Shown here: piece by piece, positions 39,473 through 41,456 of the stretch
Layout: every line of letters begins with the position of its first letter
Position numbering within the stretch: the first letter of the stretch is position 1
Source of the DNA: Aquimarina sp. AU58
Lineage (GTDB): Bacteria > Bacteroidota > Bacteroidia > Flavobacteriales > Flavobacteriaceae
Length of the DNA: 64,000 nt
Reading direction: 5' to 3'
Assembly (NCBI RefSeq): GCF_900312745.1
Contig: NZ_OMPD01000014.1
Span: 2,914,001 to 2,978,000, forward strand
Made by a program: the position numbers and the translations under genes
The notes under the pieces: generated by a model
What the model was told of the DNA's origin: nothing
Database searches by the model: none
The model's input: the letters and a program-made list of their open reading frames with translations, nothing else

Positions 39473-39537
39473 AACACCCATATATTTATGGGGTGTTTAC
39501 CTTATGTTTTATAGTTGTAAAACTCTGTTTTACAACT
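39473..39537. promoter_or_regulatory. Two palindromes upstream of the MNIO operon
   Basis: AACACCCATA (39473-39482) pairs, with one bulge, with TATGGGGTGTT (39487-39497). AGTTGTAAAAC (39513-39523) and GTTTTACAACT (39527-39537) form a perfect 11-bp inverted repeat with a TCT centre, ending 48 bases before the start at 39586. No gene ends here on the plus strand, so they are better candidates for operators than for terminators. Confidence 0.5.
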
Positions 39538-39585: not shown

Positions 39586-39993
39586 ATGAAAAGTAATCAA
39601 AGAGTGGGAAGAGGGGCAGTAAGATTATCAATCCCAGCAAAAGTTGCGTATGATGCAAAAGCCTTTCAAAATAGTATTCATGAGCTGTTAGATGAATTGG
39701 GATGTCCAAAATGTTTCTCTGGGGTAGATTGTTATTTTCAGACGATTAGAGATTACGTTTTAGACCCGAGAGAAAATGTAGTTTCACGATCACTGGCTTT
39801 TAGAGATCCTTCTCCACAACCTAGTAAATTAATAGCAACAAAAACTCTAAATGTTGGGGTGTCCCCGGCAGTATCTTATGATATTGGTAAGATTGATGAA
39901 GCTATAAAAAGTATTTTTGAAGAAATAGGATGCCTGGCATGTTGTTCTGGGAATGATATATTCTTTCAAAACCAGTTTGATTTTAATTTTTAA
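39586..39993 (+). CDS. Duplicated Cys-motif protein, candidate MNIO substrate
   Basis: 135 residues, no signal peptide. It is made of two similar halves. Half 1 has SIPAKVAYDAKAFQNSIHEL and then GCPKCFSGVDCYFQ (39-52); half 2 has GVSPAVSYDIGKIDEAIKSI and then GCLACCSGNDIFFQ (115-128). The shared motif is GC-x2-C-x-SG-x-D-x2-FQ. A basic, glycine-containing N-terminus (MKSNQRVGRGAVR) precedes. It is directly upstream (8 bases) of an MNIO-family enzyme, the usual place of the Cys-containing peptide substrate of such enzymes. I do not recognise the family; the substrate role is inferred from context and motif. Confidence 0.75.
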   Translation: MKSNQRVGRGAVRLSIPAKVAYDAKAFQNSIHELLDELGCPKCFSGVDCYFQTIRDYVLDPRENVVSRSLAFRDPSPQPSKLIATKTLNVGVSPAVSYDIGKIDEAIKSIFEEIGCLACCSGNDIFFQNQFDFNF

Positions 39994-40001
39994 AACAAAT
40001 C

Positions 40002-41456
40002 ATGGGTGTAATTGAAAAAACGCTAGAATTAGAATGCCTACCACAATTAGGGGTAGGCATTATTTACTCGCCTACAGTGGCCAATATTAATTTCCCTAAT
40101 GGGCTAATTGATACGTTTGAAATAGAACCTCAAACATTGTGCATCAGAGATGAAAATGACAACTTGAAGGTACCAACAGAAGTTTTTGAAGAAATACATA
40201 AACTACCATATCATAAATTAGTACATAGCATAGGAGCGCCTGTAGGAGGAAGCTTACTGCCCAAAAATGATCAGTTAGCATTAATTAAATATGCTACAAC
40301 TCTTTTTGAGAGCCCCTGGGTAACAGAACATCTTAGTTTTAACGCCACTACCGAATTTAATACTGGTTTTTTTCTTCCGCCTTGCCAAACAAAAAAAGGG
40401 TTGGAATTAGCCATACGAAACATAAAGTATCTTCAAGATAAAATAGGAAAACCAATAGCTATTGAAACCGGGGTAAATTATCTAAAACCCAATAGTCATG
40501 AAATGAATGATGGAAGTTTTGTTGCAGAATTATGTAGAGAAACGGGATGTGGAATATTATTAGATATTCACAATATTTTTGCTAATCAATTAAATGGTCG
40601 TCAAAGTATTACAAACTTCTTAAAAGAAATACCACTAGAGCATGTAGTAGAAATGCATATTGCAGGAGGAACCGAATTAAATAATTTATGGATGGATTCT
40701 CATTCTGGACCTATAGATAAAAGGTTACTTGCTATAACAAAAGAAATTTTACCAGATCTTACTAATTTAAAGGCTGTTACTTATGAAATATTTGATTCTT
40801 ATATTCCTGTAGTTGGTGATGCTCTTATTATTTCTGAAATGGAAAAAGTAAGAGAACTTTGGGAAAACAGAAAAGAGCAATATCATATTTCTGAAGAAGA
40901 AAAATTGCCTAAGACGGTATGTAATATTCAAAAACTTAATCAGGAATTTGATCCTATCGCATGGGAAAACATGCTAGGTAATCATGTTATTGGCCGAGTA
41001 GATGAACATAATGTGCTAGAGAATGAAGAAAGAATTAAAATTTATCAAAAGTTAATAAAAGAATTTAGAGCTTCTATGGTAGCTCGAATTTTTAAACTTA
41101 CAACACGATATATGATGTTGGTGTTAGGGATGGAAGTATTTGCTGCCATTCTTAATGATTTTTGGAAACATTACCCTCCCGAACAACTAAGTCATAAAGA
41201 AGCTAAGAATTTTGCTGCTTATCTAATGCATAAAGACTATAAACTTCCTTGGTTAGATCGATTACTTAACTATGAAGTTGCTGTACTTGATACTCTAATG
41301 GATGAAACTCTTAGGGTAGTTACATTCGATGCCGACCCTACACCTATGTTTAATGCTCTTTCTCAAGGAAAATTACCAGAAAAAATAGGAGATTTGGGAG
41401 ATTATGAAGTCGAAATTACTCCCGAAACCTCTACAACAAACTGGATGGTGATATAG
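40002..41456 (+). CDS. DUF692 / MNIO iron oxidase fused to a DUF2063-like partner domain
   Basis: 484 residues. Residues about 1-285 are a DUF692 TIM-barrel oxidase (family of MbnB and TglH, which oxidise Cys residues of peptide substrates using a multinuclear iron centre). Likely metal ligands are all visible: His75, His110 (EHLSF), Glu155 (IETGVN), Asp188 and His190/Asn191 (LLDIHNIFAN), His219 (MHIAGG), Asp232 and His234 (DSHSG), Glu262. Residues about 310-460 (NEERIKIYQKLIKEFRASM, WKHYPPEQLSHKEAKNFAAYL, LPWLDRLLNYEVAVLDTLMDE) look like the DUF2063 partner that in other systems is a separate gene. Cotranscribed with the duplicated Cys-motif protein upstream. Product unknown. Confidence 0.85.
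   Translation: MGVIEKTLELECLPQLGVGIIYSPTVANINFPNGLIDTFEIEPQTLCIRDENDNLKVPTEVFEEIHKLPYHKLVHSIGAPVGGSLLPKNDQLALIKYATTLFESPWVTEHLSFNATTEFNTGFFLPPCQTKKGLELAIRNIKYLQDKIGKPIAIETGVNYLKPNSHEMNDGSFVAELCRETGCGILLDIHNIFANQLNGRQSITNFLKEIPLEHVVEMHIAGGTELNNLWMDSHSGPIDKRLLAITKEILPDLTNLKAVTYEIFDSYIPVVGDALIISEMEKVRELWENRKEQYHISEEEKLPKTVCNIQKLNQEFDPIAWENMLGNHVIGRVDEHNVLENEERIKIYQKLIKEFRASMVARIFKLTTRYMMLVLGMEVFAAILNDFWKHYPPEQLSHKEAKNFAAYLMHKDYKLPWLDRLLNYEVAVLDTLMDETLRVVTFDADPTPMFNALSQGKLPEKIGDLGDYEVEITPETSTTNWMVI

Follow-up and report, generated by a model that had tools for sequence, protein, structure and literature searches.

The locus lies in a 64,000-nucleotide stretch of Aquimarina sp. AU58 DNA, here called the window. 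Two open reading frames, separated by 8 bases, are found exactly where a first-pass annotation made from the sequence alone had placed them (Table 1). The smaller protein is an internal tandem duplication. Aligned locally, its halves reach a score of 78, where 5000 shuffles gave 48 at most, and the two motif segments read as the annotation had quoted them. Judged from hydrophobicity alone, the protein has no obvious signal peptide: among 11-residue stretches close to the N-terminus, the highest Kyte-Doolittle mean is 1.03. Comparison of the motif domain with Pfam, NCBIfam and PDB sequences returned nothing meaningful, and structure prediction of the small protein was uninformative (pLDDT 41).

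Table 1. Features of the two-gene locus (window positions) and positions of the three-gene loci of Acidobacteria.
Feature	Position	Strand	Remarks
Substrate candidate, 135 aa, 6 Cys	39586..39993	+	two tandem ~45-residue leader-plus-motif domains
Copy 1, leader-like part	39616..39699	+	residues 11-38; strand + helix
Copy 1, motif GCPKCFSGVDCYFQ	39700..39741	+	residues 39-52; C43 = second Cys, proposed target
Copy 2, leader-like part	39844..39927	+	residues 87-114
Copy 2, motif GCLACCSGNDIFFQ	39928..39969	+	residues 115-128; C119 = second Cys, proposed target
Fused MNIO-partner enzyme, 484 aa	40002..41456	+	
MNIO TIM-barrel domain	40041..40886	+	about residues 14-295
C-terminal partner-like domain	40953..41426	+	about residues 318-475
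Three-gene Acidobacteria loci	L125:5721-7474, L126:5730-7489, L127:5532-7333		

Residues 57-285 of the larger protein match the Pfam family MbnB_TglH_ChrH (PF05114) with 143 bits (cut-off 25; 1.4e-41), as do all 40 fused members at E <= 0.01. The best-scoring NCBIfam model is BufB (NF050167), with 121.5 bits where the cut-off is 310. The nine iron ligands of TglH (H71, H107, E151, D184, N187, H216, D229, H231 and E258; PMC10880893) align one to one, in a profile alignment, with H75, H110, E155, D188, N191, H219, D232, H234 and E262 of the window enzyme and are invariant in 40 of 40 fused sequences, which bears out the annotation's reading of a DUF692/MNIO enzyme with its whole ligand set. Consistent with this, an AlphaFold2 model computed from an alignment of the 40 fused enzymes (pLDDT 88.6, pTM 0.86) found TglH (8hi7) as its best structural match (Z 28.2, rmsd 3.0, 282 aligned).

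MNIO enzymes usually need a separate partner. The annotation had proposed that in the window enzyme this partner, similar to DUF2063, is fused to the C-terminus. In the model of the enzyme the C-terminal domain is a helical bundle (residues 318-434); as for the RRE-type winged-helix domain of PME-type 2 partners, the model has just a short beta-alpha-beta tail behind the bundle. Family models alone fell under their curated cut-offs, with 17.8 bits for Pfam DUF2063 (PF09836; cut-off 27.2) and 18.7 bits for HvfC (cut-off 142); within the set of 40 fused members, DUF2063 was found in 4 (best E 2.2e-4) and HvfC in 8 (E <= 0.01). The profile of the fused C-terminal region (~190 residues) was compared by hhalign with 20 separate partner proteins, chosen by script as following unfused MNIO genes and all matching DUF2063. 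The two profiles matched with a probability of 95% (P 3.6e-8). Among controls, 20 column shuffles had a best P value of 0.22; these shuffles, the reversed partner profile and the MNIO domain put in the place of the C-terminus gave at most 0.3%. A three-gene version of the locus exists in Acidobacteria (L125-L127), consisting of a small protein with the sequence ACxxC[K/R]SG, an unfused MNIO and a partner-like protein of 205-227 residues. The fused C-terminal domain matched these three partners with 95.6% (P 1.1e-8, 133 columns; shuffled profiles, 0.6% or less), and the three partners, none of which matched a Pfam family, matched the DUF2063 set with 78.6% (P 1.7e-5). The Acidobacteria motif protein matched the motif alignment with P 4.5e-6, over just 20 columns. 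Structure prediction, which the annotation had suggested as a check on both domains, recovered the MNIO barrel and no DUF2063 fold among the matches listed: the 50 rows listed by each of VIA-align and Foldseek contained the MNIO barrel and other TIM barrels, with no C-terminal partner chain among them. Because the barrel dominated the structure matches listed, the case for the fusion is built on profile comparison and not on fold search. Together, the profile comparisons support the view that the C-terminus of the enzyme represents a fused, DUF2063-like partner.

Among genome contigs, the closest named relatives belong to Aquimarina, the enzyme being 98% identical in A. megaterium XH134. One scan of genome contigs with four fused enzymes as queries identified 53 loci, of which 48 (L077-L124) match across both domains, L110 only up to the end of its contig. 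Three of the 48 (L088, L094 and L119) are the query enzymes' own genomes, and reading frames are interrupted at two (L098 and L124). A further locus from the same MAG as L110, carrying a substrate gene and the start of an enzyme gene (L129), may be the other half of L110. Judging by record names, bacterial hosts come from six phyla (Bacteroidota, Balneolota, Pseudomonadota, Actinomycetota, Acidobacteriota and Cyanobacteriota), and one archaeal host is a MAG named Nitrosothermus; the cyanobacterial and archaeal cases, each a single MAG, could be binning errors. In a tree built from 63 MNIO domains, the fused enzymes (33 rows, taken from the 48 loci) formed one group (100/98); the 22 other unfused MNIOs, the 5 ChrH-like sequences and the 3 Acidobacteria rows each formed a group as well. 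Since the composition of 10 of the 63 rows is unusual and several of the inner forks are poorly supported, horizontal transfer is read from the patchy host pattern only. Searches of viral contigs in IMG/VR revealed no fused relative, and the substrate had no match among PLSDB plasmids. Enzyme matches in PLSDB (20 of 354 records listed, plus one record) were discarded as ordinary DUF692 proteins or unannotated stretches; others among those listed were weak and spanned separate DUF692 and partner genes. Other MNIO clusters are present in the genus (L013:1027-1245, L012:798-1382 and L011:2481-3257); among their products are a precursor of the chryseobasin kind, with CIACGMG at its end, and long proteins rich in Cys that are encoded next to DUF692 and partner genes.

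An alignment of 43 motif copies (A7) had been assembled by a pattern already requiring [C/H]xxCx[S/T]G, so that its "invariant" Cys, Ser/Thr and Gly prove nothing. Owing to this circularity, we quote here a search with the leader columns only, using a profile itself built from the same 43 copies, with a limit of E <= 0.01. Run on the 259 upstream ORFs of the 48 fused-enzyme loci, the profile identified 73 leader copies in 47 loci, L110 having no upstream sequence. The [C/H]xxCx[S/T]G sequence directly follows the leader in 71 of the 73 copies; in 60 of these it begins with Cys and in 11 with His. The motif Asp is found in 34 of the 43 copies of A7. Thus, the GC-x2-C-x-SG-x-D motif of the first-pass annotation is real but was drawn too strictly, as His may replace the first Cys and some copies have no Asp. 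A CxxCC sequence occurs in 26 of 26 two-domain substrates and in 5 of 25 ORFs with one copy. Start codons of the substrate genes are uncertain in some loci (L102, L114 and L121, for example).

The two leader copies not followed by the motif belong to Acidobacteria (L091:1547-1783 and L096:454-681). Both proteins retain the leader-like part and lack the Cys motif, and the fused enzymes adjoining them are ligand-intact. Either these loci are decaying or the Cys is not the sole target. As the leader is kept without the motif, the recognition and target parts of these proteins seem separable. Substrate homologues that lost the second or both motif Cys were also seen in Mucilaginibacter-type genomes (L094:5283-5549, L165:1444-1809 and L166:2065-2313, reading GYPDGYAGF, GYPNSYSEF and GCKNSSRGF, respectively); the Cys-less L094 paralogue was not picked up by the leader-only profile at its limit. 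A half of the HxxCATGC or HxxCASGC type comes first in L093, L104 and L162 (Synechococcaceae, Actinomycetota) and last in L101, L109, L111 and L123 (Rhodobacterales), the order of the halves being swapped. One locus (L097:5418-5992) has two tandem single-domain substrate genes ahead of one fused enzyme, and the sequence NPQPLPP or NPQPDPP is found near the N-terminus or between the halves in L117:5774-6004, L121, L162 and L093.

A motif ORF lies directly upstream of the fused enzyme at 45 of the 48 loci; the motif-less homologues account for two of the others and the cut contig of L110 for the third. Within the genus both genes are present in the same 7 of 52 genomes, the other four matches to the enzyme being other DUF692 proteins or a fragment, and among 149 genomes sampled from the family the pair occurs solely in the window's own genome. 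Separate searches for the motif and for the fused enzyme in a Bacteroidota sample singled out the same 3 of 395 genomes. These results support the association of the small protein with the enzyme that the annotation had proposed. Precursor-first searches were made around other hosts. In the class of Marivita (250 genomes) they gave one true match, in the centre genome, and one chance match; in the phylum of Streptomyces (178 genomes), three true matches, all with a fused enzyme and one of them newly found (G929); and in the order of Mucilaginibacter (181 genomes), two true matches, one chance match and one Cys-less homologue (G1075, the genome of L165). In this single genome the fused-MNIO profile had no match at E <= 0.001, which speaks for the linkage of motif and enzyme; as a control, the profile detects unfused MNIOs in two genomes (G596 and G606) at about 1e-35. 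Across 39 host genomes (that of L109 left out), there were as many substrate matches as domain copies in the cassette. Exceptions were G606, which has a degenerate copy (L166), G596, with a neighbour lacking Cys, G614, where one match is weak, and G625, where a match covers the leader only; G624 and the three Acidobacteria with three-gene loci gave no match. Each intact motif protein recognised in the precursor-first searches adjoined a fused MNIO.

The possibility, raised in the annotation against its own proposal, that the motif protein occurs widely without any DUF692 gene found no support in the genomes sampled. At E <= 0.1 the motif search of the 395 genomes gave matches in 49; inspection covered L022 and L023-L050, the 24 weaker matches (E 0.037-0.095) having no locus. 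Among the 28 loci L023-L050, the motif was present at the middle solely in L024; a few loci lie at the ends of contigs, and in these the middle does not quite coincide with the match. Three further candidates were set aside as chance matches: L160, by inspection antisense to a PIN-domain-like ORF; L164, with two internal stops; and G614:C171, a weak match.

Clustering of the genes surrounding 33 loci showed that, besides the pair, only two families occur in at least four loci, one in four Mucilaginibacter-type loci and the other, acetyltransferase-like, in those four and L104. No third gene family is common to loci across lineages, and no protease, exporter or immunity gene is shared. Pfam was run on 85 of 130 neighbours, and among the 25 of 88 families listed none is found in more than three: response-regulator receiver, His_biosynth and Dus in three each, Peptidase_S66 and sigma-70 in two each. 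Nothing among the families listed points to copper in the neighbourhoods scanned. Upstream of the substrate gene, positions 39513-39537 form a perfect 11-base inverted repeat, AGTTGTAAAAC-TCT-GTTTTACAACT. Its arms are 9 bases long in L077 and decayed further in L079-L081; as the arms shrink even in close relatives, it is not put forward as an operator. Sigma-70-like sites number 12, against 12.3 in shuffles, and terminator-like sites 5, against 1.3, one of the latter being the inverted repeat itself.

Analysis of dN/dS in nine comparisons indicated purifying selection on both genes. With the four nearest relatives (L079-L082) the small protein has ratios of 0.05-0.07 and the enzyme ratios of 0.04-0.08; by this measure both are constrained to the same degree among close relatives. 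Where a value could be obtained further off it is higher, with 0.28 (L089) and 0.22 (L090) for the small protein and 0.13 (L088) and 0.20 (L090) for the enzyme, in a set of five remaining comparisons whose silent sites are wholly or partly saturated or which are more distant. Identities of small protein and enzyme are 46% and 63%, respectively, with L089, and 52% and 58% with L090. In distant relatives the small protein thus drifts faster than the enzyme, chiefly outside the leader and motif, which means that it is not uniformly frozen.

The first-pass annotation did not recognise the substrate family. Its two-domain members are probably in print as the uncharacterised adjamnio-IV group described by Antoine et al. 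2025 (PMC12452194), which numbers 10 putative precursors, 119-146 aa long, with 5-6 Cys and a CxxCC sequence, without signal peptide and in the order "Adjamnio-IV - MNIO", with no partner listed in the part of the paper available. The window protein resembles them in length, Cys number, CxxCC and position ahead of the MNIO gene, and the first three of these characters fit 19 of the 26 two-domain substrates, the window protein included. That description, in its accessible part, names no host, internal duplication, fused partner or single-domain forms (PMC12452194).

Accessory domains fused to MNIOs are known in several forms, one of them being the MNIO/nitroreductase type. ChrH and DybH, like the window enzyme, have a C-terminal helical domain and are associated with a CPxC motif; in cyanobacteria the ChrH-type domain is separate (MelHc; PMC12636315). 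The C-terminal domain of the window enzyme differs from the ChrH bundle in being larger and of the DUF2063 type, and in the tree the two enzymes fall in separate groups; the motif here is Cx[S/T]G as opposed to the CPxCGxG of chryseobasin precursors (PMC12636315). MovX, too, does without a separate partner and carries an additional domain fused to its MNIO, but this domain is a winged helix-turn-helix and the target of MovX is a C-terminal Asn (PMC12452194). Fused C-terminal accessory domains in ChrH and MovX, together with the adjamnio-IV report, make the finding less isolated than the first reading of the locus implied. Bufferins and captophorins (BufABC, HvfABC) likewise combine a Cys-modifying MNIO with a DUF2063-type partner, but their substrates have Sec signal peptides and the partner is a separate gene, neither of which was seen here (PMC12452194, PMC13097082). 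TglHI, although the closest solved structure and identical in its nine iron ligands, has a separate partner, TglI, and works on a scaffold to which a C-terminal Cys has been added, that Cys being its target (PMC10880893). In the literature searched, with subscription papers mostly outside it, an MNIO fused to a DUF2063-type partner, the single-domain forms and a multi-phylum cassette are unreported. The novelty lies in the fusion to a partner, in a layout of just two genes, in substrates with one or two motifs and in a patchy distribution over several phyla.

Linkage of the substrate gene, the intact MNIO site and the fusion to a partner together point to modification of the small protein as the likely function, and we consider it very probable that the enzyme acts on the protein encoded beside it. 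We postulate that the strand-plus-helix part of the small protein, VRLSIPAKVAYDAKAFQNSIHELLDELG, would be bound by the fused partner domain and that the MNIO domain, using two or three irons and O2, would oxidise the second Cys of each [C/H]xxCx[S/T]G. This Cys is the probable target since it is found in all 71 motif copies while the first can be His. A four-electron route may lead to a sulfur-bearing heterocycle, 5-thiooxazole-like, with a change of about -4 Da per motif, so that about -8 Da would be expected for the two motifs of the window protein. The choice of a heterocycle, which has a somewhat less than even chance of being correct, was made by analogy with other Cys-modifying MNIOs, such as the one that forms a -4 Da thiooxazole on FonA (PMC13097082). 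Export of the modified protein appears rather unlikely, as there is no obvious signal peptide and no shared protease or exporter gene. The product would then most likely be a cytoplasmic metal-binding, perhaps copper-binding, protein and not an exported natural product. The metal role is the weakest step and is put forward tentatively. Taken as a whole, the reading in which a protein staying in the cell has its motif Cys modified by a fused MNIO seems to us fairly likely to be right.

This reading was weighed against others. The modified motif part could be cleaved off as a RiPP natural product, its release depending on housekeeping proteases and transporters whose genes lie elsewhere. Clusters of the DybA/DybH type also comprise a precursor, an MNIO and little else (PMC12636315), and the leader-plus-core layout of the substrate, with the leader kept where the motif is lost, is what such a pathway would have. 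We regard this as unlikely given that no protease, exporter or immunity family is common to loci across lineages and that single neighbour families stay at or below 3 of 85, Peptidase_S66 at 2, among those listed; moreover, in close relatives the small protein is under the same constraint as the enzyme, and in the window protein more than 80 further residues trail the first motif copy. In another scheme both Cys of a CPxC sequence would enter a macrocycle/hydantoin rearrangement, as ChrH catalyses on the CPxCGxG of chryseobasin. The two systems share CPxCxxG, and ChrH, too, has a fused C-terminal helical bundle (PMC12636315). However, His replaces the first Cys in 11 of 71 copies, the motif of the Streptomyces substrate (L102) has a single Cys, and in all 43 copies of A7 the residue after the second Cys is other than Gly. 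Comparison of the C-terminal domains by hhalign gave no match (P 0.62), the two groups stand apart in the tree, and the NCBIfam ChrH model (NF050165) gives the window enzyme 62.9 bits for a cut-off of 600; chemistry of this kind is thus improbable.

Finally, the small protein might be an unmodified metal carrier or chaperone, whose Cys/His/Asp motif loads iron into the MNIO or regulates it. The sequence [C/H]xxCx[S/T]GxD does resemble a metal site, and the exchange between Cys and His at its first position (60 and 11 copies) would suit a metal ligand. Among characterised MNIOs none is known to be encoded together with a metal carrier of its own, which counts against this idea, as does the enzyme's own partner domain, expected to bind a gene-linked substrate. 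In addition, a similar motif protein holds the substrate position in the precursor-MNIO-partner operon of the three Acidobacteria. We find a carrier function very improbable.

Returning to the modification of a resident protein, the patchy recurrence of the same pair in several phyla and one archaeon suggests a self-contained protein-modification kit. Speculatively, and less likely than not, it might be a portable cofactor kit and no natural-product pathway, spread horizontally between phyla and to archaea as well, which would convert the conserved Cys of a small resident protein into a built-in heterocyclic ligand, the paired sites of two-motif substrates making up one intracellular metal or redox centre. 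A single-chain enzyme and a short soluble substrate alone would constitute the simplest unit for studying the interplay of partner, leader and active site, and the natural variants (His-first motifs, one or two motifs, Cys-less forms and the three-gene loci of Acidobacteria) provide a set for mapping target and recognition. If the product does stay in the cell, the role of MNIO enzymes would widen from the making of exported chelating peptides to the outfitting of resident proteins.
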